DNA from: Deltaproteobacteria bacterium
Lineage (GTDB): Bacteria > Myxococcota_A > Polyangia > Haliangiales > SHYZ01
Direction of reading: 5' to 3'
DNA: 64,000 nucleotides
NCBI GenBank assembly: GCA_016210055.1
Contig: JACQUZ010000166.1
Location: 1 to 64,000, forward strand
The stretch's first letter is position 1; every line of letters begins with the position of its first letter. Position numbers and translations under genes: made by a program. Below are positions 100 to 17,946 of this stretch, in pieces. The notes under the pieces are model-generated. The model saw only the letters and a list, made by a program, of their open reading frames with translations, did no database searches and was not told the DNA's origin.

Positions 100-1321
100 G
101 GGACGCGGGCTCGGGCACAGCGGAGGATCCAGGTGTCGGCCTGAAGTCGCCGCTCGCTGGCCCGGATGCTCGTCCAGGCGCCGGTGGGGGCGGCGGCCTA
201 GGCGGTGGCGCATGAGCGGCCGGTGGAGGAGCCGGCGCGGCCTGGGCAGCCTGCGGCGCGGGCTCGGCCGGAACTTGCTCGACCTCTGGGCTCGCACCCG
301 CCTTGCGCAGGCAATCCTCGATGCGCGCCCTCGCTTCTGCGTCGAGATCCACAAACCTCAAGCCCATCCCCGCTGCGTCGCCCTTCGCGCTTCGTTCGGG
401 CGCAACGACCCTCGCCACCTCCGCTTCCAGCTCGAGAGAATGGTTGTCGGGAAGGGCGATGCGGAGCTTCACCGCTGTCCCTACTGCCAGAGGCGTGGCC
501 GCGCGCACGAAAAGACCCCCGCGGCTTATGTTACGGGCGTGGAGCGTCACGAACTGATCCCACGTCCCGCACTTGATCTTGATGGGCTGAAGGAAGCGCT
601 GGCGTGGCTCGGCCCTGGCGAAGATCGGTGCCCCGGTGGGCTGGGCATCGGGTGCCACTTCGGCAGCACTTCGGGGTGAAGCTGGGTCAAAAGCGATAGG
701 CGCCGGTGGTGCCGAGACCGCGGCCACTGGCGTCGCCGAGATTGCCGCCGCGGGGGCCGCCGCGGGGGCCGCCGCGGGCGTCGCCGGGCTCTTGGCTGGC
801 GACAAGCGCGCGAGCGCATCCCGGATGGCCTCCGAGTCCTGCTCCAGCTGCAGCGCCAGCTGGAATTGCATCCGGGCCCCCTTTTCGTCACCCGCACGGA
901 GCCGCTCGTTTCCGAGCTGAAAGAATCGCCGCGCCTTCTCGTTTTTTGGCTCCGAAGGGCGCGACTGCGCCTGCTCGGCCCGGGCGATCTCTTCTTCGGT
1001 CACCCGGAAGCGGCCCCCCGTAAGGACCCGATCGTAGATCTGTCGCCGCACCGGATCGGACAGCATCCGGTACGCCTCGCTAATGCGAGAATAGAGCAGC
1101 GATAGAGCACGACGTCTCTCGAGGTTCTTTTCCCGCGCATGGCGGTCGGGATGCACCGTCCCGACCCGCTTGTAATACGCCGCCTTGATGGCTTCGGGAT
1201 CTGCCGTGGGGCTGACCTTCAGCACGTCGTAGTACGAGCGCTCGTCCAGCCGATCGACCATGGCCAGGGTTTCTGCCCAGAAATCGCTCTGTGGCACCGG
1301 TGGCGGTCCTCCTTGGCTCAT
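1..1321 (-). CDS. J-domain protein with PilZ domain and Pro-rich repeat tail (3' end outside window)
   Basis: Partial gene: 440 codons are visible and the stop lies beyond base 1. Residues about 28-95 form a J domain with the HPD triad at 57-59 (VHPDR), the part that stimulates Hsp70 ATPase. Residues about 120-230 are charged and then Ala/Pro-rich. Residues about 235-330 look like a PilZ domain of the myxobacterial TIGR02266 type, with NISRGG at 264-269 and GMGLRFVDLD near the end. The usual RxxxR of c-di-GMP-binding PilZ is not clear, so ligand binding is uncertain. The tail is Pro/Ala-rich and ends in PESPPAP repeats. It starts 4 bases after the stop of the Hsp70 gene, so the two are very probably cotranscribed partners. 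J plus PilZ in one chain is an unusual architecture. Confidence 0.85.
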   Translation of the reverse strand, partial: MSQGGPPPVPQSDFWAETLAMVDRLDERSYYDVLKVSPTADPEAIKAAYYKRVGTVHPDRHAREKNLERRRALSLLYSRISEAYRMLSDPVRRQIYDRVLTGGRFRVTEEEIARAEQAQSRPSEPKNEKARRFFQLGNERLRAGDEKGARMQFQLALQLEQDSEAIRDALARLSPAKSPATPAAAPAAAPAAAISATPVAAVSAPPAPIAFDPASPRSAAEVAPDAQPTGAPIFARAEPRQRFLQPIKIKCGTWDQFVTLHARNISRGGLFVRAATPLAVGTAVKLRIALPDNHSLELEAEVARVVAPERSAKGDAAGMGLRFVDLDAEARARIEDCLRKAGASPEVEQVPAEPAPQAAQAAPAPPPAAHAPPPRPPPPPAPGRASGPASGDFRPTPGSSAVPEPASQSPPAPPESPPAPPESPPAPPESPPAPPESPPA

Positions 1322-1325
1322 GCCC

Positions 1326-2906: not shown

Positions 2907-3038
2907 GGTATGGCGGCTCAGGATAGCGTCCGAGCCCAAGTATATCTCGTCGGCTTCTCGTTAGACAACTAGTGCGACGTGCCCGACTGGGGCACAGGGC
3001 GGTTGCGCAGCTCCGGGGGATGGGGATACGATCGAGCG

Positions 3039-5303
3039 GTGCAGCGTCCGGCCGCCCGGAGGCGTCTTGTCCTGGTCGATCCCGACCCGCGGTTTGGCGC
3101 CGCGGTATCCGAGGCGCTCACGGCACAGGGGTACGATGTCTGCGCGTGCACCGATGCGCCAGAAGGCCTGAAGAAGCTCGCCACCCTAGCGCCTGACGTC
3201 CTGGTCGTGGAGCTGGAAATCCCTGGCCATGACGGCGCGTGGCTCCTTCGCAAGCTGCGAGACGATTACATGGGGCGACGCCCTCGTGTCGTCGTCCTGG
3301 GCAGAGCCGAAGCGATCACCAGTGGCCTGGCCGGGCTCGGGGTGAGCGCCGTCGTGCTCAAGCCAGCCCTTCCGCAGGCGGTGGTGGCGGCATCGACCGA
3401 CGGCGCTGCACGTGATGGGATCGCAAGGGACGCGGAGTCCGTGCGCGAGCTCGTGGAGCTCTCGATCCTCGACGGTGACCTGGCAGGGGCCCTGTCCACG
3501 CTCAGCAAGCGGGTTGCCCTCACGCTGCGTGTCTCGGAGTGCATGGTCATGGGGTCGCTTGGCGAGCGCGAGTTCATGGGCTCGGCAAGCGGACGATCTG
3601 CTGACAGCTCAGGCCTCCCGATCCTCGACTTCTGCCGCGTGGCCGTGGATGCCCGCTCCCCGGTTTTCGCCGCCGTGCGTCCCGGGCGCATTGGCTCGTA
3701 CCTGGCAGCGCCGTTGGAGTCACCCCTCGGGGGAAATCGATTGGGCGTCCTCATGCTCTGCGACGAGAACGCACGGGCTTTTCCCGCGATCATCGTCGAC
3801 AGCCTGCGCGCGTTGGGGCGGCGGCTCTACGGAGAGCTCGTATGGCGCTCGCTCCACGAGCGGATCGCGGCCGATCGGGACAGGCTGCACGAGATATCGA
3901 TGATCGATCCAGCTCTAGGCGTGTGGACGCGTGCAGCGCTCGATCAGGCCCTGCCTGGCGAGGTGTCGGCGTGTCGCCGTCGAGGAGAGCCGGTCGGTCT
4001 GGCCATCATCGACATGCGGGGCTTGCGTCACCTGAACGAGAAGCATGGGCACGTGCTTGGAGACGCGGCTCTCCGCCACGTGGCGACCACCGCCCGACGG
4101 GAGGTGCGGATCCAGGACATCATATCCCGCTACTCTGGGGACACGTTCGCACTGGCGCTGCCTGGCTCCTCGGTGGAAGACGCCGTGAAGATCATCGCGC
4201 GAGTCCAACAGGCGCTCTCGGCCTCGCCGTTCCAGCGTGGAGGGGTGACGATCTCCCTAACGATCGCCGCCGGCGTGTCGGCTCTCGCCGAGATCGACAC
4301 CGCCGAGGCCGCGCTCGCCCGTGCGGCTGCGGCCGTAAAGCTCGCCAAGCAGCGCAGCGAGCCCATCGCCGTTGCGGACGCCAGCATGACTCCCGACGAT
4401 GGAGAGACCGTTGAGATCGTGGAGGCGCGGCCCCTCGAGCCCGGGGCCACCTTGGGGGGGAACTACCAGATCTTTCACGAGATCAGCCACGGTGCCATGG
4501 GGGTGGTGTATCGCGCCGAAGATCTTGGCCTCGGAAGACCCGTGGCGCTCAAGGTGCTCAAGCCAGAGCTAGCGCGCGACAAGTCGGTCGTGGATCGCTT
4601 CCGTGCCGAGGCCGGGATCCTGGCGAAGATCCGCCACGAGAACCTGGTCCAGGTGTACTCATTTGGAATCGACGGCGACGACGTCTACTTCGCCATGGAG
4701 CTCGTCGAGGGGGAGTCTCTTGAAGCCCAGATTGACCAAGCGCGCGATGAGCGACGGCTCCTCTCCCTAGAAGACGTCGAACGGGTCGTCGCCCACATGT
4801 CCGACGCTCTGGATGCCCTCCACAAGGTGGGAGTCCTGCACCGGGACGTGAAGCCAGCCAACGTGCTGATTGATCGCGCCAAGGGTCGTGCCGTGATGGT
4901 CGACGTGGGCATCGCCAAGCGCCGTGGCACGGAAAAGGATCCCGCCGGAACACCAGGATTCACGGCTGTCGAGGCCTTCACCGGCGGCATGGAAAGCCCA
5001 GCGACCGACGTCTACGGGCTCGCCGCCACGGCGTACATGCTCCTCACCCTCGAGCCTCCTTTCGGGGAGGACTCGGCCCAGGCAATCCTCGTGCGCCAAA
5101 TGCGGGGCACGCCGACGCCTCCGTCGCACGTGCGGCCAGGAATGCCGCATGCGGTCAATGCGGTGCTCTTGCGGGCACTCGATCGCAACCCTGCCAACCG
5201 TCACGCCACCGCCAGCGAGTTCGCGCGCGCCCTGATTCAGGCGCTCTCGGATGCGCCCGAGCCCGTGCGCATCGGCAAGGACACGTTCCGGCTCAAGGAA
5301 TAA
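3039..5303 (+). CDS. Hybrid signalling protein: REC-GAF-GGDEF(degenerate)-Ser/Thr kinase
   Basis: Residues here are numbered from this GTG start. A receiver domain (about 7-120) has Glu58 in VVELEIPGHDG where the phosphorylated Asp should be; the switch Lys remains (VLKPA). A GAF-like region follows (about 130-270), then a GGDEF fold whose signature is SGDTF (366-370), so cyclase activity is doubtful. The C-terminal half is a Ser/Thr kinase with ATP-binding VALKVLKP (Lys505), catalytic HRDVKPAN (Asp603) and DVG instead of DFG (Asp622 retained), and it is probably active. The likely output is protein phosphorylation tuned by upstream sensory modules. GTG at 3039 places the receiver at a normal distance from the N-terminus; GTG at 2979 is an alternative. 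It is convergent with the HDOD gene. Confidence 0.9.
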   Translation: MQRPAARRRLVLVDPDPRFGAAVSEALTAQGYDVCACTDAPEGLKKLATLAPDVLVVELEIPGHDGAWLLRKLRDDYMGRRPRVVVLGRAEAITSGLAGLGVSAVVLKPALPQAVVAASTDGAARDGIARDAESVRELVELSILDGDLAGALSTLSKRVALTLRVSECMVMGSLGEREFMGSASGRSADSSGLPILDFCRVAVDARSPVFAAVRPGRIGSYLAAPLESPLGGNRLGVLMLCDENARAFPAIIVDSLRALGRRLYGELVWRSLHERIAADRDRLHEISMIDPALGVWTRAALDQALPGEVSACRRRGEPVGLAIIDMRGLRHLNEKHGHVLGDAALRHVATTARREVRIQDIISRYSGDTFALALPGSSVEDAVKIIARVQQALSASPFQRGGVTISLTIAAGVSALAEIDTAEAALARAAAAVKLAKQRSEPIAVADASMTPDDGETVEIVEARPLEPGATLGGNYQIFHEISHGAMGVVYRAEDLGLGRPVALKVLKPELARDKSVVDRFRAEAGILAKIRHENLVQVYSFGIDGDDVYFAMELVEGESLEAQIDQARDERRLLSLEDVERVVAHMSDALDALHKVGVLHRDVKPANVLIDRAKGRAVMVDVGIAKRRGTEKDPAGTPGFTAVEAFTGGMESPATDVYGLAATAYMLLTLEPPFGEDSAQAILVRQMRGTPTPPSHVRPGMPHAVNAVLLRALDRNPANRHATASEFARALIQALSDAPEPVRIGKDTFRLKE

Positions 5304-5337
5304 CAGTGCCTGTCGCTTGGGGACCGCAGGGCACCTG

Positions 5338-6180
5338 CTAGATCGACGACAGCTCGGACACCCGCTCTGAAAAACGCCTGACCGAGTCGTCCACGCGAGC
5401 AGGGGGGTGGACGAAGTTCTTGATGCTGAGGCGGCTCCGGTCGAGCGGTTCGAACCCAGACCCTGCCCCGGCAAGAGTGGCGAGCTCGTCGGCAGCGGCC
5501 ACGAGCCTCACGATTTCCGGGGACGTGCTGCTCGCCTCGTGGTGCCCCTTCATGACGGCTTTCATGAGAGCCGGGAGCTGCCAAAGGTCGGCCAAGCGTG
5601 CCCCCGCCGCGGTGTGGGTGATCTTGAGAACGCCGTTTATCCCTGCGCCCGAGGCCAAGAGGCCGGCAAACATGGTGACGTTGTCCGACATGAACTTGAT
5701 GAGAACGGCGGCCCCAATGTCGTGCACCAGCCCAGCGAGTCCAGCGTCATCTGCAGGCGTGCGAGACCCGGAGGCCAGGTAGGTGCAGGCTGCCGATACG
5801 GCGAGGCTGTGCTTGCGGAGGCGGTTCATCTCGTCCGCAAACTGATGCGATGTAAAAAGGAGAGGCTCGAGCGACGCGAAGACGAGCACGTCGCGCGCGG
5901 TGGCGAGCCCGATGCGAGTGAGCGCTGCTTGAACGGAGAGCGCGGGGAGTCCTCGTCGATACAATCCGGAATTGGCCGTGCGGAGAAAGCGCACCGCGAG
6001 GAGCTGATCGCGTTCGATCAGCCTTGCGATGTTCCGGATGTCCGCATTCGGCGTGCTCGCGAGCTGCATCGCCTTGCGAGCGACGTCCGGCAGCATCGGC
6101 GGGTGGAAGGAAGGAGACATGATGAAGTGCGAGAGCAATGCGACGGCGCGCGCTTCTTCGTGGTCCTTCGGCAACTGCAT
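5338..6180 (-). CDS. HDOD domain signalling protein
   Basis: A 280-residue single-domain HDOD protein, a catalytically degenerate relative of HD phosphohydrolases used in bacterial signalling. Typical features are visible: SPSFHPPMLPDVARKAMQLA near residue 25, the ARLIERDQLLAVRFLRTANS block, GLATARDVLVF, and LVHDIGAAVLI in place of a metal-binding HD centre. No signal peptide or membrane segment is seen. It lies between two other signalling or metabolic genes, and its 44-base upstream gap is strikingly A/T-rich for this genome, so it probably has its own promoter. The family usually acts as a scaffold downstream of second-messenger or kinase circuits; its partner cannot be deduced here. Confidence 0.85.
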   Translation of the reverse strand: MQLPKDHEEARAVALLSHFIMSPSFHPPMLPDVARKAMQLASTPNADIRNIARLIERDQLLAVRFLRTANSGLYRRGLPALSVQAALTRIGLATARDVLVFASLEPLLFTSHQFADEMNRLRKHSLAVSAACTYLASGSRTPADDAGLAGLVHDIGAAVLIKFMSDNVTMFAGLLASGAGINGVLKITHTAAGARLADLWQLPALMKAVMKGHHEASSTSPEIVRLVAAADELATLAGAGSGFEPLDRSRLSIKNFVHPPARVDDSVRRFSERVSELSSI

Positions 6181-6224
6181 TTTTACACTCTATAACAAAA
6201 GCGCGTTCTCTATTACAGAAATTT

Positions 6225-7436
6225 TTACGCTTGTATTTCCCGACCTCCGACTACATTCCACTGGAAGCGCAGTCGTCCGGCAAGAAACCGCAATAATGCC
6301 TCGGCTTTGGGCAAGAAGCTGGCGAGCTCCACGTACTCGGTCGTGGTGTGGAAGCCCGCTCCCCGGGGGCCAAGCCCGTCGATCGCGGGCACCCCGATGG
6401 CCGCAACGGTGTTCGCATCGCTCCCGCCACCAACGAGCGGCGCCTCACCGTCGCCAAGCGTGGCCGCGCGCTGGCAGGCGGCGTATTCGGAGAAAAGGGC
6501 GGCCTGTTCTTTCGTCTTCTCGAGAGGCGGGCGAGTGATGCCGCCCTCCAGGCGAATTCTCGTGCCCGACACCCCCTGCTCAGCACGCTGCGCCGCCAGG
6601 TGGATCGCGTCCACGAGCGCCTTCGCGTCGTCGGTCGAGTTGAACCTGAGATCGATTTCGCAGCTCGCGCTCTCCGGCACGGTGTTCTTGCTGGTCCCTC
6701 CGCGCACGACTCCTACGTTTACCGTGACCCCCCGTCCATAATCAGTGAGTGGCTGGACGGCGTCGATCAACTTGGCCACGGCCCAAATGGCGTTTCGCCC
6801 CTCTTCGTGGGCATTTCCAGCGTGGGCAGCCCTTCCCGTGGCGCACGCCCGGATCAACCCAGTTCCCCGCCGCCGCGTAACAATGAGATCCCCAGCCCGA
6901 CCCGACTCGAACACCAGCGCGCATTGAGCGCCCTTGGCGACTTCCCGGAGGACAGGGGCAGAATCCGGAGAGCCAATCTCCTCGTCTGCGACAGAGATGA
7001 CGAGGACTGGAAGGTCGGCGAGGAGATTGGCCTCGTCGAGCACGGAGAGCACGGTGCGCACGATGGCGAGGCCACCCTTCATGTCGAGCGCGCCCGGGCC
7101 AAAGGCACGGCCTCCCTCCTCGCACCACCCTTCGAAATGCCCTGGAGGAAAAACGGTGTCGTGGTGTCCGACGAGGACGATGGGGGAAACGCCCTCTTGC
7201 CGAGCCGCCTGAGTGCGCCAGACGAGGTGATTGCCCACCCGATCGCTCTTCTTCACCTCGAGCTCGACGGACGGAAACGCGAACGCATCCTTGAGAAGCT
7301 CACCCACCCGGTTCACGCCTGCGATGTTCTCCGTGAAGCTGTTTACTTCGACCCATTCCCTGGTGAGGCGCCACATCTCGTGCTCGCGGCGCTGAAGCGA
7401 CAGCAGAAGTTCTGGAAAGTGGTCCACGGCAGCCAT
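6225..7436 (-). CDS. M20 family metallopeptidase/amidohydrolase (ArgE/carboxypeptidase G2-like)
   Basis: A 403-residue zinc-dependent M20 enzyme. Metal and catalytic motifs appear in order: VGHHDTVFPPG (His-x-Asp), GALDMKGGLAIV (bridging Asp), ISVADEEIGSPDS (catalytic and metal Glu) and VGGGSDANTVAA. The lid/dimerisation region lies between them (GAAHAGNAH-like RAAHAGNAHEEG). The fold serves acetylornithine deacetylase, carboxypeptidase G2 and related hydrolases. Because it is divergent from argC-argB with only 19 bases between starts, N-acetyl-amino-acid deacylation in arginine synthesis is an attractive role, but the sequence looks closer to the G2-like branch. ATG at 7436 is chosen because AGGA precedes it and longer forms would overlap argC. 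Confidence 0.85.
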   Translation of the reverse strand: MAAVDHFPELLLSLQRREHEMWRLTREWVEVNSFTENIAGVNRVGELLKDAFAFPSVELEVKKSDRVGNHLVWRTQAARQEGVSPIVLVGHHDTVFPPGHFEGWCEEGGRAFGPGALDMKGGLAIVRTVLSVLDEANLLADLPVLVISVADEEIGSPDSAPVLREVAKGAQCALVFESGRAGDLIVTRRRGTGLIRACATGRAAHAGNAHEEGRNAIWAVAKLIDAVQPLTDYGRGVTVNVGVVRGGTSKNTVPESASCEIDLRFNSTDDAKALVDAIHLAAQRAEQGVSGTRIRLEGGITRPPLEKTKEQAALFSEYAACQRAATLGDGEAPLVGGGSDANTVAAIGVPAIDGLGPRGAGFHTTTEYVELASFLPKAEALLRFLAGRLRFQWNVVGGREIQA

Positions 7437-7455
7437 TTTAGTATCCTGTCGCCCC

Positions 7456-8508
7456 ATGACGAAGCGATTCAAGGCAGCCATCATTGGTGGATCGGGATAC
7501 GGCGGCGCCGAGCTGATCCGCCGGTTGATCATTCACCCCGAGGTTGAGCTCGCGCGCGTGGCCTCGGTCGACTACGTCGGGGAGTCGCTGGGTGCGGCGC
7601 ATCCGAACCTCGAGGGGATTACCGAGCATCGGTTCCAGGACGTGCCTCCGGCCGAGGCAGTGAGGGGGTGCGACGTGGCGCTCCTAGCACTCCCGCATAA
7701 GGTGACCGCCGCCAAGGTTCCAGAGCTCGTGGCGACGGGCGTGAAGATCGTCGACATGTCAGGTGATTTCCGCCTGCGGGACGCGGGCTTGTACGAGCGC
7801 TACTATGGCGCTCGCCATCCGCACCCGGAGCTTCTTGGTACGTTCGCCTACGGACTTCCGGAGATTTTCCGAGAGACGATCCACAAGAGCAAGTACGTGG
7901 CGTCTCCTGGATGCTTTGCCACGTCGATGGAATTGGCGCTTTATCCGCTGGCCAAGGCGGGCCTGTTGCGGGGTGCTGTGCACGTGACCGGGCTCACGGG
8001 CTCGTCGGGGTCAGGAATCAGCCCGACGGCGACCACCCATCATCCGAGTCGCGCTGGAAACCTTCGCACGTACAAGCCCCTTGAGCACCAGCATGTTCCC
8101 GAGGTGACCCAGGTGCTTGGCGATGCGGGGGCAAAGGACTGGGAACTGCGGTTCGTGCCGGTCTCGGCGCCGCTGGTCCGGGGCATCTTTACGACGGCCT
8201 ATGTTGAAGTGCCAGCCGACGTCGACGACAAGCGCGTCGCCGCATTGTTCGACGCGTGCTATGCGGGCGAGCCCTTCGTGCGAAGGCCCAAGAAGCGGCT
8301 GCCAGAAGTGGTGGCCGTGGCCGGTTCGAACCATGCCGAGGTGGGGTTCGTGGTGTCGCCTCCCCGCGGGGAAAGCCGAACCGTGGCCTGCTTTGCGGCG
8401 ATCGACAACCTCATCAAGGGGGGCGCCGGTCAGGCTATCCAAAACATGAATCTTGTCCTCGGCCTAGATGAGAAACTCAGCTTGGAGGACCCGGGATCAT
8501 GGCCGTAG
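7456..8508 (+). CDS. argC: N-acetyl-gamma-glutamyl-phosphate reductase
   Basis: A 350-residue NADPH-dependent reductase of arginine biosynthesis, converting N-acetylglutamyl-5-phosphate to the semialdehyde. The Rossmann start AAIIGGSGYGGAELIRRL is at residues 7-24, the active-site Cys lies in YVASPGCFATSM, and the substrate region GSSGSGISPTATTHHPSR and the C-terminal NLIKGGAGQAIQNMN are typical. The length is normal for the family. It overlaps argB by 10 bases, so the pair is translationally coupled. Members of this family also act on LysW-bound substrates in lysine or ornithine synthesis, but no LysW-like gene is visible here. Confidence 0.95.
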   Translation: MTKRFKAAIIGGSGYGGAELIRRLIIHPEVELARVASVDYVGESLGAAHPNLEGITEHRFQDVPPAEAVRGCDVALLALPHKVTAAKVPELVATGVKIVDMSGDFRLRDAGLYERYYGARHPHPELLGTFAYGLPEIFRETIHKSKYVASPGCFATSMELALYPLAKAGLLRGAVHVTGLTGSSGSGISPTATTHHPSRAGNLRTYKPLEHQHVPEVTQVLGDAGAKDWELRFVPVSAPLVRGIFTTAYVEVPADVDDKRVAALFDACYAGEPFVRRPKKRLPEVVAVAGSNHAEVGFVVSPPRGESRTVACFAAIDNLIKGGAGQAIQNMNLVLGLDEKLSLEDPGSWP

Positions 8509-9344
8509 CCGAGAAGGTTGTCATCAAGGTTGGCGGGGAGGTCCTTGCAGGTGACCAGGTGAGGGCGCTCGCTGGGGACGTGCGCGTCTTGTCCTTGTCC
8601 GCCCGCGTCGTGCTGGTGCACGGCGGCGGTCCGCAGGCCACCGACCTGCAAAAGCGCCTTGGCATCGAGCCGGTTCAGGTCGGGGGGCGACGAATCACTG
8701 ACGCCGCGACCCTCGACGTCATGAAGATGGTTCTGGCCGGGAAGCTCAACGTGGACTTCTGCGCCGCCCTGGTTGAAAACGAAGTGAAGCCTGTCGGGCT
8801 GCATGGCGCTAGCGGTCTCGTGGTCCAAGCAAGAAAGCGACCTCCCCGCGTCGTGACGGGGGGTGGCCCGGACCCCGTCGATTTTGGGCATGTCGGCGAC
8901 GTGGTGGGGTTCAATCTCGGGCTCCTCGAGATCCTCTGGGCGGCCGGCTACGTGCCCGTCATTGCTTGCCTGGGTGCCGATGACAAGGGGGGGATTTACA
9001 ACATCAACGCCGACGTCGTCGCCAATCAGCTCGCCGCCACGCTCAAGGCCGATCATCTATTCCTCGTCACTTCGACTCCCGGCGTCCTCCGCGATCTCCA
9101 AGACCCCTCCTCGCGGCTCCCTTCACTGAGTGTCGGTGATGCCCGGCGAGCCATTGCGAGCGGCGCGGTCACGGGGGGCATGATTCCCAAGCTGGAAGAG
9201 GCCATCTCCGTCTTGGACCAGGGCGTTGGTGCCATCCATATCCTTGGAAAGCTTGCTTCTGGCGACCTGCTCCGCGCTTCCCAAGAGCCAGGGGCGGTCG
9301 GGACGACCCTGCGCAGGGACCTGGGAGACCGCGATCACGGATAG
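8499..9344 (+). CDS. argB: Acetylglutamate kinase
   Basis: A 281-residue amino-acid kinase that phosphorylates N-acetylglutamate in arginine synthesis, one step before ArgC. Visible motifs are the phosphate-binding KVVIKVGGEV at the N-terminus, VLVHGGGPQATDLQKRLG, the NINADVVANQLAATL acetylglutamate/nucleotide region and the TGGMIPKLEEA segment. A GGAGG ribosome site at 8484-8488 supports ATG 8499, which overlaps the end of argC. The substrate loop GLHGASGLVV departs from enteric ArgB, so a LysZ-like role cannot be excluded. Confidence 0.93.
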   Translation: MAVAEKVVIKVGGEVLAGDQVRALAGDVRVLSLSARVVLVHGGGPQATDLQKRLGIEPVQVGGRRITDAATLDVMKMVLAGKLNVDFCAALVENEVKPVGLHGASGLVVQARKRPPRVVTGGGPDPVDFGHVGDVVGFNLGLLEILWAAGYVPVIACLGADDKGGIYNINADVVANQLAATLKADHLFLVTSTPGVLRDLQDPSSRLPSLSVGDARRAIASGAVTGGMIPKLEEAISVLDQGVGAIHILGKLASGDLLRASQEPGAVGTTLRRDLGDRDHG

Positions 9345-9383
9345 CATTCGCCTGCTTTACTTCGCCCCACGGCTCATGCTATC
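9340..9383. repeat. 8-bp inverted repeat after argB
   Basis: GATAGCAT at 9340-9347 is matched by ATGCTATC at 9376-9383, with a 28-base spacer. It is directly followed by a small hairpin, CGACC-ctc-GGTCG (9383-9395). Both lie between the argB stop and the sigma-factor gene. There is no T-run, so this is not a standard intrinsic terminator; an operator or a structured leader for the sigma operon is possible. Confidence 0.35.
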
Positions 9384-9429
9384 GACCCTCGGTCGGCCCT
9401 AGGGGCTGGCATGGAGAGGGGGTGACTGG

Positions 9430-10116
9430 TTGTCCGAACCGGCGCAGGAACTTGTCCATCGCGCCTTGGCAGGGGATGCGCCGTCCGTGCGCGCGCTCGT
9501 GGACGCTCTGTCCCCAGTGATTCAGGCGAGAGTGGCCCGAGCGCTCCGGAGGCGGGCCGTGGGGGCGGGTCGTCGTGACTCCCAGCAGGAGGTCGACGAC
9601 ATGACCCAGGAGGTGTTCCTGTCCCTGTTCGAGAATCAGGGCCGCGCCCTCCGGGCATGGGACCCCGGTCGGGGTCTTTCGCTGGTCAACTTTGCTGGGT
9701 TCCTGGCGGAGCGCCAGGTTGCGTCCATTCTTCGCAATGGTCGTCGCAGCCCCTGGAAGGAAGATCCGACCCTTTCAGAGGATTTCGACGCACTGGACTA
9801 CCCGGCGGTGTCGGCACCTGGGCCAGAGCGCGAGGTCGCGTCGCGCGAGTTCTTGTCGACCCTCCTCGATCGGCTTCGAGAGGCGCTAACTCCCAAGGGT
9901 TTTCAGCTCTTCGAGCTTCTCATGGTCGATGAACGGCCGGTCGAGGACGTCTGCCGCATCACCGGGCTGCAAGCCGACGCGGTGTACACCTGGCGCAGCC
10001 GCCTCGCCAAGGTGGTGCGCAAGCTCACGGCGGAGATCGAATCCGACAAGAAAAAATCGGCGGGTCAACGATCGGAAATCGCCATGTCCACGCGTATCTC
10101 TCAGGCAGGGAAGTGA
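9430..10116 (+). CDS. ECF-like RNA polymerase sigma factor
   Basis: A 228-residue sigma-70 family protein with only regions 2 and 4. Region 2 is marked by VDDMTQEVFLSLFEN and by the -10 recognition part around RGLSLVNFAGFLAERQVAS. Region 4 is a helix-turn-helix near LQADAVYTWRSRLAKVVRKL. The linker between them is longer and more acidic than usual. The start is TTG at 9430 behind the purine-rich stretch ggagaggggg. It heads a four-gene operon: the next gene begins 2 bases after its stop. Family knowledge says such factors are held by a cognate membrane protein, and the next product fits that place. Confidence 0.85.
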   Translation: MSEPAQELVHRALAGDAPSVRALVDALSPVIQARVARALRRRAVGAGRRDSQQEVDDMTQEVFLSLFENQGRALRAWDPGRGLSLVNFAGFLAERQVASILRNGRRSPWKEDPTLSEDFDALDYPAVSAPGPEREVASREFLSTLLDRLREALTPKGFQLFELLMVDERPVEDVCRITGLQADAVYTWRSRLAKVVRKLTAEIESDKKKSAGQRSEIAMSTRISQAGK

Positions 10117-10117
10117 C

Positions 10118-10789
10118 ATGACTGACGATCAGCTCCTCAAGGCACTTGGCCAGCTTGCGCGTGAACAGCGAGCGATGGAAGAACCATCGGTCACATCCCT
10201 GAGCGATACCGCGAAGGACAAGCTCGCTGCGCGGCTTCTCGCCGAGGTTAGGCGTGGATCCCAGAATCCGGGACCGACGGGCCACGTCATTCCGTCCCGC
10301 ACGAAAGCGATTCGCGCGTCGATGCTTGGCGTGCCACTGGCGATGGCCGCTGCCCTGGCCCTTTGGCTCACCACCACGGAACGCGCCTCCCTTGCCCCTC
10401 TCCCCAATTATGAAATGGTGGCATCCGGCGGAGCACGCGACTTTCGTTCCGGCGAGCCTTCCCGCGGGGAGGAGCCTATTGTGCTGGTGCCCGGAACCCG
10501 TCTCGACCTCCACTTGCGGCCTGCCACGCCTGTCGTGGGGCGGATTTCCACCCGCGTGCACGCCGTCCAGAACGGCCAGGCGCGCGAGATCGGGGTGCAA
10601 GAGCAGGTGTCGGATGAGGGTGCTGTTCGGATTTCGGTCCCGGCCGAAGCCATCCCGAACCCTGGCGAGTGGGAGGTCGTCGTGGTCCTCGGGCGAGCGG
10701 GGGCAGTTCCTGAAACGCTCGCGGCGGCTGAGCGCGACCGGTCGGTTCTCGTGTTCCGGCGACGGGCTCGCCGCGACGGGGAAAAGTGA
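10118..10789 (+). CDS. Single-pass membrane protein, candidate anti-sigma factor
   Basis: A 223-residue protein with a cytoplasmic N-terminal segment (1-66, charged, helical), one transmembrane helix at about 68-85 (MLGVPLAMAAALALWL) and an exported C-terminal beta-rich domain of about 135 residues. I recognise no named domain and no zinc-binding anti-sigma motif (HxxxCxxC is absent). Assignment as anti-sigma rests on position: it starts 2 bases after the sigma gene and its end overlaps the CHAT gene start by 4 bases. The exported domain (IVLVPGTRLDLHLRPA onward) would be reachable by the two predicted surface proteases encoded downstream. Confidence 0.75.
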   Translation: MTDDQLLKALGQLAREQRAMEEPSVTSLSDTAKDKLAARLLAEVRRGSQNPGPTGHVIPSRTKAIRASMLGVPLAMAAALALWLTTTERASLAPLPNYEMVASGGARDFRSGEPSRGEEPIVLVPGTRLDLHLRPATPVVGRISTRVHAVQNGQAREIGVQEQVSDEGAVRISVPAEAIPNPGEWEVVVVLGRAGAVPETLAAAERDRSVLVFRRRARRDGEK

Positions 10790-13545
10790 ACGGGCATCGA
10801 GCTCTTTCAGCCGTCCTCCTTGCGGCTCTGTGCCCCGTGCTCCTAGGGTGCAAGTCAAGACAAGCGCGGCAGCCCGCATCCCCTTTGTTCTTGGTCGTGG
10901 ACGTGTCGGGTTGTGGGGCTTACCTTTCGGGTTCACGCTGTGAGCTGCCCAGGGACGGGCAGTTGCGCCTTTGGGTTCAGGCGCCAGACGGGGTGTCGTT
11001 TCACGTAGCGACAGAAACGGCGGCCATCACCCAGCCGGAGCCGGCGTCCCCCGCTGGGCGGCTCATTTCAGTGAAGGTGCCGTCTTCGGCCAAGGAACTG
11101 CGCGTGCTCGCGCGCATGGGGAATGCGAGCTCCGACCATGTTCTGCCCCTCGCTCCCGGGGCGAGCGTCCCTCTCCTCGACGAAGTGAGCGAGCTTCGCC
11201 AAGCAGGAAAGAGCGCTGAGGCTCTGGAGCGGGCGAGACAAGGGCTCGGCTCGCTAAGCGGCGGCGACCGGGCCCGCGCTCTTGGCCTCATCGCGCGCAT
11301 CGAGCTCTCGCGGGGCCATTCCGAAGAAGCCATCGCGGCCCTGCGAGAAGGGCGGCCCCTCTATCGTGGCTCGGGGCGAATTTCGGATGCATTCGACGAC
11401 GCCATGCTCCTCGCGTACACCCTCGTTCAATACGGTCCTCGGTACGGCGAGGCACGCAAGGTGCTTGAAGAAGCAGCAGCGGAAGCCGCGGGCTATCCCG
11501 ACGGAAAAGCACGTCTTCCCTACTACCAGGGCTTTGTCGCGGCCCGGACGGGCGACGTCAGAACGGCCCTTGGGAGCTTCCGCGAGGCCCATGCCCGGGC
11601 GTCGCGATTGGGGATGGCTCGGCTTACCCGCGCCGTCCGTCAGGAGCTGGCAGAGCTTTTCCAAGCCCTCGGCCGCTGGGGCGATGCGCTCCAGGAGCTC
11701 AAGGCTGCTCGTGCGGAGACCACTGGACTCACGGGTCCCTGTGAAGAGCCAGACCTCCTCACGAACATGGGCTGGGTTGCGCTTCTCTCACGCGAGCCGG
11801 GAGCGAACCAGGCAGGCGGTTTTCCGGCGCCATCGCCCCTCCTCGAGCAAGCCTTGGGGCTGTACGAAAAGAGCTGTCCAGATCCCCATCGCAAGGGGAA
11901 CGTGCTCCTTAACCTCGCCCTTGCGGCGCTGCAAGAGGGCCGCCCGCAGGACGCGCTGGCTAGGCTTGCCCTCGCACGCCAGGCCCTTTCTTCCCCTTCG
12001 GCGAGCATCCAGCTTTGGTGGCTGGACATCGAAGGGCGCGTCGCGCTTCTCGAAAAGAAACCGAAAGTAGCCCAATCGCTTTATGAGAGGCTATCGCGCC
12101 TCGCCGAGGCCAACCTATCGCCAGAGGCGAGCTGGCGGGCGGCCCTGGGGAGCGCACGGGCACTACGTGATCAACGCAAGATCGGGCCTTCGCTCGAGGC
12201 GTATGCCAAGGCAGAGGCGCTCCTCGACGATCAGCGGCTTTGGGTCCCCGTCGGCGAGGGGAGGGACACCTTCCTCGCAGGGAAGGAGCAAAGCGCCATG
12301 GAGCGGGTGGCGCTTCTTCTCACCGCTGGCCGCGCCGACGAGGCGCTCCTCGCCGCGAGGAGGTCGAGGTCGAGGGTTCTCCTAGCCCTTCAGCGGGCAG
12401 ACCGCTTGGGCCAGCTTGCTCCCGAGGCACGGGCACGATGGGAGGAGGCCATCGGTGCCTATCGACGCGAGCGTGCAGCCCTGGACGTCGAGGCGGCTTC
12501 CGACTGGCAGCTCTCGTCGGAGCGCCTCGCGCTGGTGCTCGAGCAGCGCAAGTCACGCGAGGGTCGGCTCAAGGCCGTTCTAGACGAGGCCTTTCGTGCC
12601 TTGTCGGGGAATTCCTCAAAGGAGCACGAGGTGACGTTCCGGCAGCCGGGCCCTGGTGAGCTTCTCGTTGCGTACCACCCGATACCAGGCGGCCATGCCG
12701 TGCTCGCCGCCGACGGAGCCGGCGTGGTGGCGGAGCACATTGGCATCGTTGACCCCGCGGCTTCGGCAGCGGTCATGGCGGATACCCTGCTGGGCCCGAT
12801 CTCCACAAGGCTCGAGAAGGCGCGCAAGCTTCTCGTCCTCCCGCACGGCGCCCTCGTGGACGTGGACTTCCACGCGCTTCCGTGGAATGGGAAGCCGCTC
12901 GTGAGCTCCAAGATCGTCGAGTACCCGCTGGATCTCCCGGCGCGAGCCGTAGCTCAGGGGGGCGTCGAATCGGTCGCTACGACTGCGCTCGTCGTCGGAG
13001 ACCCACTCGGGGACTTGCCCGTGGCTGGGCGTGAGGCAGAGGCCGTGGCCGCTGCGCTGGGCGTGGCTTGGAAGCCGACGCTACTCCGAGGTAGCGCCGC
13101 CACGAGCGGCAAGGTGCTCGACCTCCTCGGCTCGGCGAGCCTGTTTCATTACTCGGGGCACGGCATGCAGGCCGGCAGAGACGGCCTCGATAGCGCTCTA
13201 CTCCTTTCCGAGGGGGGGCGGATCACCGTCGGAGATGTCCTGGCCCTTTCACGAGTGCCCAAGGTCGTGGTGCTTTCCGGTTGCGAGACCGCTCGGGCAC
13301 CGTCTCCGGGCCCAACCTCCATGGGCCTGGCACACGCGTTCCTCCTCGCCGGCGCTCAGGGCGTTGTTGCGGCCACAAGGCCCGTGGGGGACACGCTCGC
13401 CTCCCAGGTAACCACGATGTTCTATCGCGTGATGGGGGCTAATGATTCGCTCGATGTAGGTACGGTCGTTGGACGAGCACAGGCGGAATTGGCAGAGAGG
13501 TCGCCCACGAGTGATTGGGCGGCATTTCGGGTCTTGATCCCTTAG
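10786..13545 (+). CDS. TPR-CHAT caspase-like protease, predicted lipoprotein
   Basis: A 919-residue protein starting at GTG 10786, overlapping the previous stop. A lipoprotein signal (VLLGC, Cys22) implies an exported, lipid-anchored product. Residues about 45-125 are a beta-rich region. About 130-560 is an array of helical pairs with TPR character (for example ALERARQGLGSLSGGDRARA). The C-terminal CHAT domain carries the caspase-type dyad His792 (FHYSGHGM) and Cys833 (VLSGCETA), so it is predicted active. CHAT proteases are known from separase/caspase relatives and from CRISPR-linked TPR-CHAT. An outward-facing one tied to a sigma factor is unusual. There is no CRISPR or gRAMP gene nearby. 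Confidence 0.88.
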   Translation: MNGHRALSAVLLAALCPVLLGCKSRQARQPASPLFLVVDVSGCGAYLSGSRCELPRDGQLRLWVQAPDGVSFHVATETAAITQPEPASPAGRLISVKVPSSAKELRVLARMGNASSDHVLPLAPGASVPLLDEVSELRQAGKSAEALERARQGLGSLSGGDRARALGLIARIELSRGHSEEAIAALREGRPLYRGSGRISDAFDDAMLLAYTLVQYGPRYGEARKVLEEAAAEAAGYPDGKARLPYYQGFVAARTGDVRTALGSFREAHARASRLGMARLTRAVRQELAELFQALGRWGDALQELKAARAETTGLTGPCEEPDLLTNMGWVALLSREPGANQAGGFPAPSPLLEQALGLYEKSCPDPHRKGNVLLNLALAALQEGRPQDALARLALARQALSSPSASIQLWWLDIEGRVALLEKKPKVAQSLYERLSRLAEANLSPEASWRAALGSARALRDQRKIGPSLEAYAKAEALLDDQRLWVPVGEGRDTFLAGKEQSAMERVALLLTAGRADEALLAARRSRSRVLLALQRADRLGQLAPEARARWEEAIGAYRRERAALDVEAASDWQLSSERLALVLEQRKSREGRLKAVLDEAFRALSGNSSKEHEVTFRQPGPGELLVAYHPIPGGHAVLAADGAGVVAEHIGIVDPAASAAVMADTLLGPISTRLEKARKLLVLPHGALVDVDFHALPWNGKPLVSSKIVEYPLDLPARAVAQGGVESVATTALVVGDPLGDLPVAGREAEAVAAALGVAWKPTLLRGSAATSGKVLDLLGSASLFHYSGHGMQAGRDGLDSALLLSEGGRITVGDVLALSRVPKVVVLSGCETARAPSPGPTSMGLAHAFLLAGAQGVVAATRPVGDTLASQVTTMFYRVMGANDSLDVGTVVGRAQAELAERSPTSDWAAFRVLIP

Positions 13546-13563
13546 GACGGTAGGAGAGGCGAC

Positions 13564-15576
13564 ATGGAGCAACTGAATCGTTTACGTGCCGGTATCTGGC
13601 TTACCGGAGGGTTGATGCTCTCGTTTTCGGGCTGCGCCCAGGGCACCGACGAGAGTCCCGAGAGCCCGGTGGCGACGAGTCGATCGGCGCTTTCCATCGC
13701 AGAGGCGTGTCCAGAAACGCGTTGGGTCGGCTGGAGCGCTGAAGGGGAATGCCCACGCCAAGTCGGCAGCTCGCAGCTCGGGTACTGGCAGGTGACCAAC
13801 TTCCTAGGGAAGAGCGTGCCAGGCTTGGCCGGGTACTGCCTCTACGAGTGGATTCCAACCGATGCGAGTGCTCCTCCGTACACGAAGGGACTTCCCCCCT
13901 TGGGGAGCATCGAGCCGAGCGACTGGCTCGCCCGTGACTGCCAGGTCATCTCCCCCCTCGGAGAGCTCTCAGACCAGGCGACAGTGTGGAAAGAACTGCG
14001 GTCGTCATTCTTGCGCATGGCGAATCGGATTTCGGTCCTCCCAGCGAGAACTGGTGCGCCGCCGGTGCAAGTTCGTGTCGCGGTCGTCGACTCGGCAGTC
14101 GAGGTCTACGCGTCAGGCAAGGCGGGCTACGGGCGGATGGCGCATGGGCGAGCCGTGGGTCGCGCCATTCGTGAGCTGTCCTGCCCGTCCGATGGAAGCG
14201 GGACCACCCCCTGTATAGGAATGGTGTCGAACCATCTCGCCCTTCCGCGAGTCGCACCGGGTAAGGCCGATTACCTAAAAGGTGGATATTTTGGACATCA
14301 GTCAGACCTCGCGCTCGCCATCGTGCGAGCGGTGGATTCGTGGACGCGCTTCAATCGCTACAACCGCGATGGCTCCCTCCAGCCCCGGCTCGTCATCAAC
14401 TTGAGCGTGGGCTGGGACGCCGTCCCCGAATACGGTGGCGCGTTCAAGGAAGACCCCAGGCTGCTCCCTGGGCCAGCCCGCTCGGTTCATTCGGCAATCA
14501 CCCATGCTGCGTGCCACGGTGCGATCGTGGTCGCTGCGGCGGGCAATCGGTCGGGTGGCAAGGCTCCGACGGTAGGACCCATGTTCCCTGCGGCTTGGGA
14601 GACAAAGCGGGCACCTACAGAGGAGGAGTGCCGCAAGTTCGAAGGGGGCCTGACCCAAGGTCCGTACCCGGTGTTCAGCGGCGCCCCCTCGTATCAGCCT
14701 CTCGTGTACGCGGTGGGTGGTGTCGATGCGCGTGACCTGCCGCTCGCCATTACGCGCTGGCGTGGGCGTCCCCGCCTCGCGGCGCATGCGTACCATGTCA
14801 CCTCGAGCGACGGTACTGGACACACCGATATCCTCACCGGCACCTCCATGGCGGCAGCGCTCGTCTCGGGCGTGGCTGCCACGGTATGGGGCTATCGCCC
14901 CTCCCTGACCGCCCCACAGGTCATGGAGCTCGTTTACAAGTCGGGATTGAGCTTGAGCCCTGACCCCTCGGGTGCCAAGGTCTTTGCGGACTTTTCCTTC
15001 CAGAGCTGGATCGATTGGGCGGTGCGTCGGGTGTCGCTGTGTCGCGCTGTCGGAACCGCCTGCGCGAGCGGCCAGGAACGCTGCCCGAGCAGCCTTCCCG
15101 CGTGCTACACGGTGCCGCGTTACGCAGGCAATAACCCAGAGTGGTCCGATGCGACCTGGGCCACCGTGATGGCGAATGTTGGGACGCCAGGGGTGGACTA
15201 CGGCGCCGACGCTCCCGCGATCTTTGCAACCACAGCGGCGCCCGACACGAGCCGCGAGAACAAGTACGCGATGCCATGGGTCAATCCCCAGCCAGGATGG
15301 ACTCAATGCGATGTCTGCGGCTTGTCGACGGACGTCTACGCGGGCACTCTCTATGTGAGCACCTCGAGCTCTGCGACCTACTGGAACACCGCAACCCTGA
15401 CCGTGACGTCGGGCGGAACGCAGGCTACGTACGATCTCTCGTCTTCCATCGACGCGGGCACTCCCTATGCGACCTGGAGCGTGTCGGGAATTCCGCTTTC
15501 GGGATCGGTCAGCAGCGCCACGATGTCGTTCTCGAACGCCTCGTATTCGACCTCGGAGCCGATACTGTTTTGGTAG
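13564..15576 (+). CDS. Divergent subtilisin-like (S8) serine protease lipoprotein
   Basis: 670 residues, with lipobox SFSGC (Cys24) and a good ribosome site (taggagagg) ahead of ATG 13564. The S8 triad is present but divergent. Asp176 is in VAVVDSAVE (usually DTG), His194 is in MAHGRAV (usually HGTH) only 18 residues later, and Ser428 is in the canonical GTSMAAALVSG. The oxyanion Asn is in VVAAAGNRSGG. The N-terminal 150 residues and the Cys-containing C-terminal 170 residues (CRAVGTACASGQERC, CDVCG, then a Ser/Thr-rich beta domain) match nothing I recognise. It follows the CHAT gene by 18 bases and is the last gene of the operon. Confidence 0.85.
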   Translation: MEQLNRLRAGIWLTGGLMLSFSGCAQGTDESPESPVATSRSALSIAEACPETRWVGWSAEGECPRQVGSSQLGYWQVTNFLGKSVPGLAGYCLYEWIPTDASAPPYTKGLPPLGSIEPSDWLARDCQVISPLGELSDQATVWKELRSSFLRMANRISVLPARTGAPPVQVRVAVVDSAVEVYASGKAGYGRMAHGRAVGRAIRELSCPSDGSGTTPCIGMVSNHLALPRVAPGKADYLKGGYFGHQSDLALAIVRAVDSWTRFNRYNRDGSLQPRLVINLSVGWDAVPEYGGAFKEDPRLLPGPARSVHSAITHAACHGAIVVAAAGNRSGGKAPTVGPMFPAAWETKRAPTEEECRKFEGGLTQGPYPVFSGAPSYQPLVYAVGGVDARDLPLAITRWRGRPRLAAHAYHVTSSDGTGHTDILTGTSMAAALVSGVAATVWGYRPSLTAPQVMELVYKSGLSLSPDPSGAKVFADFSFQSWIDWAVRRVSLCRAVGTACASGQERCPSSLPACYTVPRYAGNNPEWSDATWATVMANVGTPGVDYGADAPAIFATTAAPDTSRENKYAMPWVNPQPGWTQCDVCGLSTDVYAGTLYVSTSSSATYWNTATLTVTSGGTQATYDLSSSIDAGTPYATWSVSGIPLSGSVSSATMSFSNASYSTSEPILFW

Positions 15577-17946
15577 CTAGTCCGCCCCAAGCTCCTTCCG
15601 AAAAAACCGAAACACCCTCTCCCAATAGCGCGCCGTGACCTCGGGCTCGTAGAACATGTGCGTCTGTCCAGCGAGGGTGACCAGCTCGAAAGGCTTGCCG
15701 GCGCGAAACAGCGCATCCGCGAGCTTGAGCGCCTGGTTGAAGTGCACGTTATCGTCGGCCGTGCCATGCACGATCATGAGTGGTCGTGAGAGGTTCGCGG
15801 CACCGACGAGGACGCTGTTGGCCTCGTACACGGACGTGTCCTTTTCAGGAACGCCCAGGTAGCGCTCTGTGTAATGGGTGTCGTAATCGAGCCAGTCGAC
15901 CACTGGGGCTGACGCCACTGCGGCGTGAAACACGTCCGGGCGCCGGATGACCGCCAACGCGGAAAGATAGCCCCCAAAGGAGTGGCCAATGATTCCCACG
16001 CGGGTCATGTCCATGGCGGGCTCGCGTTCGCCGAGTGCCTGAAGAGCCAGGACCTGGTCATTCAGCGGCACATCGGCAAGTTTTCCTAGGATCGCCCGCT
16101 CCCAAGCACGGCCACGCCCCGGCGTGCCTCGCCCGTCAAACGCCACGACGATGAACCCATGGTTGGAAATCCATTGCAAGCGGAGAAAGGCGCTGGCGGC
16201 TACCCCAACGACGTTATGGCCAGGGCCGCCGTACACGTGGACGAGGACCGGGTATTTCTTCTTGGCGTCGAACGTGGCAGGACGTACCACGGCGGCCAGG
16301 AAATCGGGATCGTCGCCTACTCGGGCCACGGAGATCTGGGCTCGGAATGGCGCTGCCTCCGCAACACTCGCCAGCTCACCGGCAAGAGAGCCATCCGCCC
16401 TGCGAACTTCTGCCGTATAGAACATGTCCGGGGCTCCTCGAAAAACCACCGCCACGTTGCAGTCCGCAGCGTAGTTGGCTTCGAAGAAGCCCGGCCCGGT
16501 GGTCAGGGGGCGTGGGTTGCCCCCCTTCAGTGGGACGGCGAGCAGGTGCTGCTCGAGTGGGTCGGTTCCGGCCGCCACGATGACCGAATCGCTCTCCATG
16601 TCAATACGGCGGATCCCTCGCAGCCCGAGGCTGGGCGCCGTGAGGGTGCGCACGAACTGCCCGTCTGGAGCCCTGAGCTCGAGCTGCCAGTCACCACCGC
16701 GCTCCGTCGACCAGAGGAAGCCCGAGCCGTCGGGAAGCCACGCGTATTCCTCATCAGCCGTAGAGCGTCCTGCGCCCGAAGCGTCGTAAAGCCTTGGCGC
16801 GAGGATGTTGATGTTCACCCAAGCGTCGTCGCGCTCGCGTAGGAGCTCCCTCGTGGCACCGGTCTCCGGATCGACCGACAGGAGCCAGAGGTCCTTCTGA
16901 TCTCGCGACTCCACGAGGATCGTGAGTGGAGCCCTCGGCTCCCACGTCACTTTCACCAAGTAGGGATACCGGGCGCGATCCCAGCTAACCCACGTGGTCT
17001 TGGGGATGCCCCCATTCCCCTTGGCGTTTCCTCCGGTCGGGATGGAGACGATTCCCAGCGTCACGTCCACGTTCGGCTTGCCTGGACGCGGATACGGCGT
17101 GGGCTCCGCCACGACTGACGGCTTGGCCGGATCTCCCAGGTACAGCCTCTCCACCTTTGAGCTTTCCGCGACCTCGTAGACGAGGCGCGTCGAGTCAGGC
17201 GACCACCAGTACCCGGTGTACCTGTCCATCTCCTCCTGGGCGACGAACTCAGCGAGCCCGTGGGTCTTGGTCGCGCTGGACCCGGCGGTGAGTTGGATGG
17301 GTTTCCCGCCCCGTGACGGGACAACCCACAGCTCGCTTCCACGCACGAAGGAGACCCACGTGCCGTCTGGCGAGAACTTGGGATCGAACGGGGGCGCTCC
17401 GCCTTCGTCGGGGCCCGCCACTTCTCGTGCATCCCGAGTCGCCAGGGTCACGACGTACACGCGGCCGCTCAGGGTCACGAGAACGCTCTTTCCGTCACGC
17501 GACAGCTCGTACGACGTGATCCCCTTGAGGGTGATCCTCATCCTCTCGCGAAGCGCTCGTTCCTCGGGACTCAGCTTCTCGCTCGCGCCGCCCAGGACTT
17601 GCTCTGGAGTGAGGATCTCCATCTCTTTCCCAGTGCCCACGTCGAATGCGTATAGGCGCAGTTCGGGCTTTCGTGCTTCGCCGCGGAGAAAGAGCACCTT
17701 GCTCCCATCGGGGAGCGGCTCCGCCCTCACGGGCCGCCCAAGCCGATAGCCACGGGTTTCTGCGTAGTCCTTTAGAAATGCCAGGTCCCGCTGCAGCTCG
17801 GTGGGGTCGGCCGATGATGCAACGGGGGAGCTCCCTGCCTGCGTTGCCTGCGGAGACGCAGGCGGCTGGCGAGACCTCGTCGCGCTCGCACACCCCACTG
17901 CGAGGATCAGGACAAGTCGCGTGGTGAAGAACCGGGCTCTAATCAT
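15577..17946 (-). CDS. Dipeptidyl-peptidase IV-like S9 serine peptidase, lipoprotein
   Basis: A 789-residue exported peptidase with lipobox AVGC (Cys19). The N-terminal two thirds form the beta-propeller of the DPP4 family, including the EE motif segment AEFVAQEEMDRYTGYWWSPD that binds the peptide N-terminus. The C-terminal alpha/beta hydrolase domain carries Ser656 in GHSFGGY, Asp in HGTADDNVH and His in GQTHMF, so the triad is complete. The role is removal of N-terminal dipeptides from exogenous peptides, consistent with a predatory or proteolytic lifestyle. Its stop abuts the stop of the S8 gene with no spacer, and its start codon sits inside a 14-bp palindrome. Confidence 0.92.
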   Translation of the reverse strand: MIRARFFTTRLVLILAVGCASATRSRQPPASPQATQAGSSPVASSADPTELQRDLAFLKDYAETRGYRLGRPVRAEPLPDGSKVLFLRGEARKPELRLYAFDVGTGKEMEILTPEQVLGGASEKLSPEERALRERMRITLKGITSYELSRDGKSVLVTLSGRVYVVTLATRDAREVAGPDEGGAPPFDPKFSPDGTWVSFVRGSELWVVPSRGGKPIQLTAGSSATKTHGLAEFVAQEEMDRYTGYWWSPDSTRLVYEVAESSKVERLYLGDPAKPSVVAEPTPYPRPGKPNVDVTLGIVSIPTGGNAKGNGGIPKTTWVSWDRARYPYLVKVTWEPRAPLTILVESRDQKDLWLLSVDPETGATRELLRERDDAWVNINILAPRLYDASGAGRSTADEEYAWLPDGSGFLWSTERGGDWQLELRAPDGQFVRTLTAPSLGLRGIRRIDMESDSVIVAAGTDPLEQHLLAVPLKGGNPRPLTTGPGFFEANYAADCNVAVVFRGAPDMFYTAEVRRADGSLAGELASVAEAAPFRAQISVARVGDDPDFLAAVVRPATFDAKKKYPVLVHVYGGPGHNVVGVAASAFLRLQWISNHGFIVVAFDGRGTPGRGRAWERAILGKLADVPLNDQVLALQALGEREPAMDMTRVGIIGHSFGGYLSALAVIRRPDVFHAAVASAPVVDWLDYDTHYTERYLGVPEKDTSVYEANSVLVGAANLSRPLMIVHGTADDNVHFNQALKLADALFRAGKPFELVTLAGQTHMFYEPEVTARYWERVFRFFRKELGAD

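Follow-up and report, generated by a model that had tools for sequence, protein, structure and literature searches.

A recurrent bacterial operon joining a divergent ECF-type sigma factor to a probable membrane anti-sigma factor and two predicted lipoprotein proteases

Most of what is known of caspase-like CHAT proteases concerns enzymes of the cytosol that act in defence when a ligand triggers them. What such a protease might do at the cell envelope, encoded in one operon with a sigma factor, is the question raised by a locus of a Deltaproteobacteria bacterium from the Myxococcota. The window analyzed here is a stretch of 64,000 nucleotides (positions 1 to 64,000 of the forward strand of contig JACQUZ010000166.1, assembly GCA_016210055.1). 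It carries four consecutive genes, which encode an extracytoplasmic function (ECF)-type sigma factor (SIG), a membrane protein (MEM), a TPR-CHAT protein (referred to as CHAT) and a subtilase of peptidase family S8 (S8). The open reading frame calls agree with a previous sequence-only reading, which had placed these genes in one tight operon; of the spacings it gave (4, 2 and 18 bases), the MEM/CHAT overlap of 4 bases and the CHAT-S8 gap of 18 bases were borne out, while the gap between SIG and MEM is 1 base rather than 2. The grouping is real and goes beyond chance, because 15 loci repeat the gene order on one strand and the presence of CHAT tracks that of SIG in 95 relatives. MEM is probably an anti-sigma factor, and we give about an even chance to the interpretation that the operon is an envelope-sensing transcription switch, in which the periplasmic TPR-CHAT protein would cut MEM and start the proteolysis that frees the sigma factor.

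To follow the operon across genomes, we searched the 95 relatives with the SIG and MEM proteins, which revealed co-linear pairs in other families of the class. A scan of the collection with a narrower sigma alignment gave 48 named loci, with hosts in Sorangium, Polyangium, Labilithrix, Plesiocystis, Enhygromyxa and Sandaracinus and in a second phylum, the Acidobacteriota, including Thermoanaerobaculum and Holophagales. Neighbourhoods were mapped with profiles of the four proteins, and neighbouring open reading frames were clustered all-against-all. Around 62 sigma loci in Myxococcota and Acidobacteriota, the four families were the only recurrent partners, with cluster counts over the loci of 62 for sigma, 55 for MEM, 39 for CHAT and 24 for S8. 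The only other sizeable cluster of real genes, present at 15 loci, comprised protein kinases, of which these bacteria have many; all further large clusters resemble antisense or alternative-frame reading frames of the four genes. At the 27 loci uncut by a contig end, MEM was found in 27, CHAT in 22 and S8 in 12, always together with CHAT (12/12), leaving 10 of the 22 uncut SIG-MEM-CHAT loci with no adjacent S8. All four genes lie on one strand at 17 loci, 15 of them in the order of the window and 2 with S8 before CHAT, and at some loci CHAT can sit upstream of SIG. Three sigma genes of the clade (L052, L098 and L101) had no MEM nearby that was recognizable by profile mapping.

At the level of whole genomes, 11 of the 95 relatives have the sigma clade, 12 the CHAT family and 8 the S8 family; CHAT is present in all 11 sigma genomes. 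The association is strong both for sigma with CHAT (Fisher p = 1.5e-13) and for CHAT with S8 (4e-9), p-values that ignore shared ancestry. In the twelfth CHAT genome (G044), CHAT adjoins a divergent sigma gene and two MEM genes; this divergent CHAT-sigma gene set is followed by the two MEM homologs in tandem (L187, positions 4566-9705). Distances between loci correlated for all protein pairs, most strongly among sigma, MEM and CHAT (rho 0.56-0.65, 0/500 permutations). The co-occurrence expected across Myxococcota thus recurs and extends to the Acidobacteriota, and related genomes lacking the linkage did not occur in the search.

The CHAT protein matched PF12770 at 2e-28 (positions 4-286 of 289) as well as TPR_12 in a Pfam search. 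Its sequence begins with a lipoprotein signal (Cys22), followed by an N-terminal beta domain (37-124), a TPR superhelix (129-484), further helices up to residue 607 and the CHAT domain at about 625-918. In the structure model (mean predicted local distance difference test score, pLDDT, 84; predicted template modelling score, pTM, 0.79), the N-terminal beta domain leads into a long superhelix of TPRs, and the CHAT domain is complete. The His/Cys dyad is conserved in all 41 homologs covering both positions, so that the protein combines the TPR array and the dyad-bearing CHAT domain that define a TPR-CHAT protease. Of 42 CHAT proteins, 38 had a hydrophobic stretch with a Cys after it in an automatic scan; inspection left at least 34 with a lipobox, as the Cys belongs to an internal conserved GC in L072, L078 and L112, and the stretch in L188 resembles a membrane helix. 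The intact His792/Cys833 pair and the lipobox noted before are hence all present and kept in relatives. The best fold matches of the model in the PDB were DdvA, then Csx29 (Craspase), then separase; global template modelling (TM) scores were low, about 0.3, and therefore indicate a common domain make-up, not an identical arrangement, with these proteins. A PDB search with the CHAT profile recovered TPR proteins only, and a search with the single sequence gave nothing useful. The gene is the sole CHAT-domain match in the 5.4 Mb assembly of the window genome. No DdvA-type fusion with a zinc motif was present among the weak CHAT matches in relatives (L152-L164, L168, L169). One locus (L061, positions 2717-3790) carries a TIR-CHAT fusion protein, with a ThsB-like TIR domain according to PADLOC, between the TPR-CHAT gene and the sigma gene. 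PADLOC gave only weak matches, and a defence label is therefore unsupported.

MEM had no family match in Pfam and NCBIfam searches. Its structure model agrees with the earlier assignment as a one-helix membrane protein, with a single helix at residues 72-90 separating a two-helix cytosolic N-terminus (1-67) from a periplasmic immunoglobulin (Ig)-like beta domain (98-219), the latter modelled with a pLDDT of about 97. In the fold comparison the matches of the model were limited to Ig-like folds of a generic kind, at low TM-scores, and a PDB search with the MEM profile returned no match. The strongest case for the role of MEM is a natural domain swap that goes with the type of sigma factor. Using separate leave-one-out profiles for the cytosolic and outer parts of 18 MEM proteins, we found that the outer domain is kept at loci where the sigma factor differs (84 bits at L063, 64 bits at L061), and that the cytosolic part is the least recognizable of the 18 at these same two loci (7 and 9 bits, respectively). 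The sigma factor of L063 is a canonical ECF outside the SIG clade, that of L061 is divergent, and the two MEM proteins of G044 likewise match only beyond the N-terminus. By these comparisons, the cytosolic half of MEM appears to follow the sigma factor while the outer half stays with CHAT, albeit at three loci, which are few. Such a pattern is expected if the N-terminus binds sigma and the outer domain meets CHAT, and makes an anti-sigma function of MEM probable.

At L063 (positions 1150-5451), where CHAT and MEM are accompanied by the canonical ECF sigma gene, an N-terminus of the zinc anti-sigma type replaces the usual one and the outer domain is kept. Its sequence HADDCQTC represents the HxxxCxxC pattern of zinc anti-sigma factors. 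Among 57 MEM proteins the pattern is present only there; the window MEM lacks it and so does not belong to the class I zinc anti-sigma factors. Membrane anti-sigma factors of the Ig type may have been overlooked so far in such gene sets.

The sigma factor itself is divergent, with E values of 3e-4 for Sigma70_r2 and 4e-9 for TIGR02937 (spanning residues 37-198) in Pfam and NCBIfam searches. Regions 2 and 4, the only two Sigma-70 regions of an ECF factor, both align, in line with its earlier description as ECF-like. The gene that follows SIG on the same strand at all 27 uncut loci is that of MEM, the candidate for the anti-sigma partner with which ECF genes are paired. The subtilase matched PF00082 at 2e-11. 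Its catalytic residues are conserved in homologs (Asp, His and Ser each in 24/24, Asn in 24/25), providing the Asp/His/Ser triad and the oxyanion Asn of peptidase family S8. A lipobox-type signal is found in 18 of 24 homologs, and several of the remainder have an ordinary signal peptide. The lipobox noted earlier for the divergent S8 protease, FSGC, is present and kept in relatives. Mycosins are its nearest solved structures and share the S8 catalytic core; the window protein differs from them in an N-terminal domain of its own and in the PQP..C..C domain at its C-terminus, and it scores far under the mycosin cut-off.

Taken as a switch, the operon would work as follows. MEM would be a single-pass anti-sigma factor that binds the ECF sigma factor through its short cytosolic N-terminus and exposes its Ig-like domain to the periplasm. 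Its dedicated controller would be the TPR-CHAT lipoprotein, a putative caspase/separase-like cysteine protease in the periplasm; the N-terminal beta domain and the TPR superhelix of CHAT would probably sense the activating signal. Once active, CHAT would cut MEM either in its periplasmic part or at the face of the membrane. What is left of MEM would then be removed by an RseP-type intramembrane protease together with cytosolic proteases, and the sigma factor would be released; the window genome encodes an M50 site-2-type protease. The S8 lipoprotein would be an optional, CHAT-dependent add-on that more likely serves as an effector in the response, or is itself processed by CHAT, than acts as the trigger. 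Of this scheme, the comparisons show the linked gene set, its architecture, the conservation of the active sites and the change of the MEM N-terminus with sigma type; sigma binding by MEM, the cleavage of MEM, the activating signal and the part played by S8 are inferred. We assign the role of controller to CHAT because it follows the sigma factor across genomes, whereas 10 of 22 uncut SIG-MEM-CHAT loci lack an adjacent S8.

Parts of this scheme have precedents, and the previous claim that no described pathway has this set of genes and topology does not hold. DdvA/DdvS of Myxococcus xanthus is a transmembrane anti-sigma/ECF sigma pair that controls a CBASS-CRISPR defence island (PMC4374960, PMC12288465). 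Structures of DdvA are deposited in the PDB (8rot, 8rw5; Sci Adv 2024 eadp1053), and the TPR-CHAT fold on its periplasmic side is the top structural match to our CHAT protein. In a 2024 study in Science Advances, the zinc anti-sigma domain, membrane helix and TPR-CHAT part of DdvA reportedly form one chain, the CHAT-type periplasmic domain has an incomplete dyad, and a step by RseP was suggested. Here, in contrast, MEM and CHAT are encoded by separate genes in the window and in related loci, the TPR-CHAT protein is a predicted lipoprotein with an intact dyad, the ectodomain of the anti-sigma candidate is Ig-like, and there is a linked subtilase. In Craspase/CASP, the TPR-CHAT protease Csx29 cuts the sigma inhibitor Csx30, which acts on CASP-sigma (PMC10028731, PMC9729208). 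That system resembles the operon in encoding a TPR-CHAT protease with a His/Cys dyad alongside an ECF-like sigma factor and a sigma-inhibiting protein, but it is cytosolic and RNA-guided, whereas the protease and the inhibitor domain are predicted to be exported here and the inhibitor spans the membrane. The Cas7-11 (gRAMP) gene and CRISPR array of type III-E systems are not part of the locus: there is no Cas gene, no other family recurs around the loci, and the neighbours in the window are argC, argB and a dipeptidyl peptidase IV (DPP-IV)-like gene.

A third precedent is a gene context. ECF54 sigma genes adjoin carboxypeptidase, subtilase and CHAT genes, and a review that draws on Huang 2015 and Casas-Pastor 2021 suggests that they are controlled by proteolysis with no anti-sigma factor involved (PMC8999054). 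The conserved CHAT and subtilase neighbours are shared with our loci; on the basis of this description of gene context, the difference is that MEM is present nearly always here and no carboxypeptidase recurs. As in regulated intramembrane proteolysis of the RseA/RpoE type, a single-pass anti-sigma factor would be cut on the periplasmic side before a second cut within the membrane, but the first cut would be made by a caspase-like TPR-CHAT lipoprotein, not by a DegS-type serine protease. What is new is the split architecture, the intact dyad, the Ig-type anti-sigma candidate and the linked subtilase.

In its most specific form, which we put forward tentatively and hold to be somewhat less likely than the general scheme, the operon would be a modular outside-in switch and a split, catalytically intact counterpart of DdvA. 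A periplasmic caspase/separase-like lipoprotein would serve as the dedicated site-1 protease for an Ig-type anti-sigma factor, whose exchangeable cytosolic half fits different sigma lineages, and a CHAT-dependent subtilase would be the executor. Should a lipoprotein CHAT indeed cut an anti-sigma factor from outside, regulated intramembrane proteolysis would gain a first-step protease of a new kind. Such a result would also show how a fused system such as DdvA relates to a split one and offer a testable mechanism for ECF/CHAT/subtilase gene sets that are uncharacterized. Cultured carriers (Sorangium, Polyangium, Plesiocystis and Enhygromyxa) make it accessible to experiment.

Several observations weigh against the switch. 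SIG scores under the curated sigma cut-offs for both Sigma70_r2 and TIGR02937, and the export of CHAT and of S8 as lipoproteins is in each case predicted from sequence alone. SIG and MEM occur without an adjacent CHAT at 5 uncut loci, so MEM may be controllable without it; at one CHAT-less SIG-MEM pair, in G094, CHAT is encoded elsewhere in the genome (L188). The correlation of distances is partly due to the shared ancestry of the genomes. Finally, a dyad search for a shared promoter motif upstream of 60 SIG genes gave nothing above shuffles, and autoregulation of SIG is therefore not claimed.

The main rival takes SIG and MEM for an ordinary ECF/anti-sigma pair triggered by the usual proteolysis in the envelope. 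CHAT and S8 would then be its outputs, proteases at the surface or in the periplasm that serve predation, envelope remodelling or defence. The position of both genes downstream of SIG-MEM in the operon fits this explanation, as do the loci lacking CHAT. It also accounts for the S8 homologs in Plesiocystis and Enhygromyxa that adjoin unrelated canonical ECF sigma genes and convergent WD40-kinase genes without CHAT or MEM, as an ECF-controlled product would. Outputs would, however, be expected to differ from one genome to the next, but no partner other than CHAT and S8 recurs; CHAT accompanies the sigma factor in all 11 genomes, it sometimes lies upstream of SIG, and a CHAT fold makes up the periplasmic part of a known anti-sigma factor. 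We regard this explanation as a possible one, though on the unlikely side. For S8 taken by itself, the role of an output or effector is more likely than that of a trigger, because the S8 family adjoins ECF/kinase modules without CHAT or MEM.

The outside-in relay of the sequence-only reading survives in part. The conserved four-gene unit, the anti-sigma-like evolution of MEM and the predicted export of both proteases support it; the branch through S8 is weakened. In that branch, CHAT would activate the S8 zymogen, and S8 would then cut the exported domain of MEM to free the sigma factor. This is compatible with the restriction of S8 to CHAT-containing loci among uncut examples of the gene set, with a conserved N-terminal domain ahead of the catalytic domain of S8 and with its intact catalytic residues. 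We nevertheless consider it improbable, since uncut SIG-MEM-CHAT loci without S8 indicate that S8 is not required for the switch, and S8 is also associated with other ECF modules that lack MEM and CHAT.

A co-sensor role for CHAT is improbable as well, and we place it next. CHAT would bind a ligand and the Ig domain of MEM, shielding MEM from or exposing it to a housekeeping site-1 protease, with its own protease activity aimed elsewhere, at itself or at S8. The reportedly incomplete dyad of DdvA implies that a CHAT fold can serve an anti-sigma factor without an ordinary active site, and the MEM ectodomain is kept with CHAT when the sigma factor changes, but the invariance of the His/Cys dyad points to a need for catalysis. 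An accident of gene order in one genome can be ruled out, given 15 loci in two phyla with the identical four-gene order on one strand.

The features of the operon are collected in Table 1.

Table 1. Coordinates of the operon genes and their predicted features in the window
Feature	Position	Strand	Details and basis
SIG, ECF-type sigma factor, 228 aa	9430..10116	+	TTG start, TGA stop; regions 2 and 4 divergent; 36-54% identity to orthologs from other families of the class
MEM, membrane protein, probable anti-sigma factor, 223 aa	10118..10789	+	ATG start, TGA stop; model, fold matches, neighbourhood, N-terminal exchange
MEM cytosolic N-terminal segment, predicted sigma-binding region	10118..10318	+	leave-one-out scores lowest at loci with a sigma of another lineage
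MEM single membrane helix, residues 72-90	10331..10387	+	structure model
TPR-CHAT protein, 919 aa	10786..13545	+	GTG start; family match, model, structure matches to DdvA, Csx29 and separase
CHAT predicted lipoprotein signal peptide and lipobox LLGC (Cys22)	10786..10851	+	sequence; comparable signal in at least 34/42 homologs
CHAT catalytic His792	13159..13161	+	kept in 41/41 homologs covering the position
CHAT catalytic Cys833	13282..13284	+	kept in 41/41 homologs covering the position
S8 subtilase, 670 aa, lipobox FSGC (Cys24)	13564..15576	+	ATG start; N-terminal domain of its own, catalytic Asp/His/Asn/Ser, conserved PQP..C..C in the C-terminal domain

Upstream of SIG in the window, argC and argB end 85 bases before its start. 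On the other side, a convergent gene for a DPP-IV-like S9 lipoprotein (15577-17946, minus strand) ends one base past the S8 stop and is not conserved in related loci. One genome encodes about ten paralogs of the S8 family; the loci concerned include L170, L172, L174, L175, L178 and L179 in the Plesiocystis genome G072 and L186 in G089. Several of these paralogs adjoin a canonical ECF sigma gene and are convergent with a very large protein kinase/WD40 gene, a separate repeated ECF-subtilase-kinase module.

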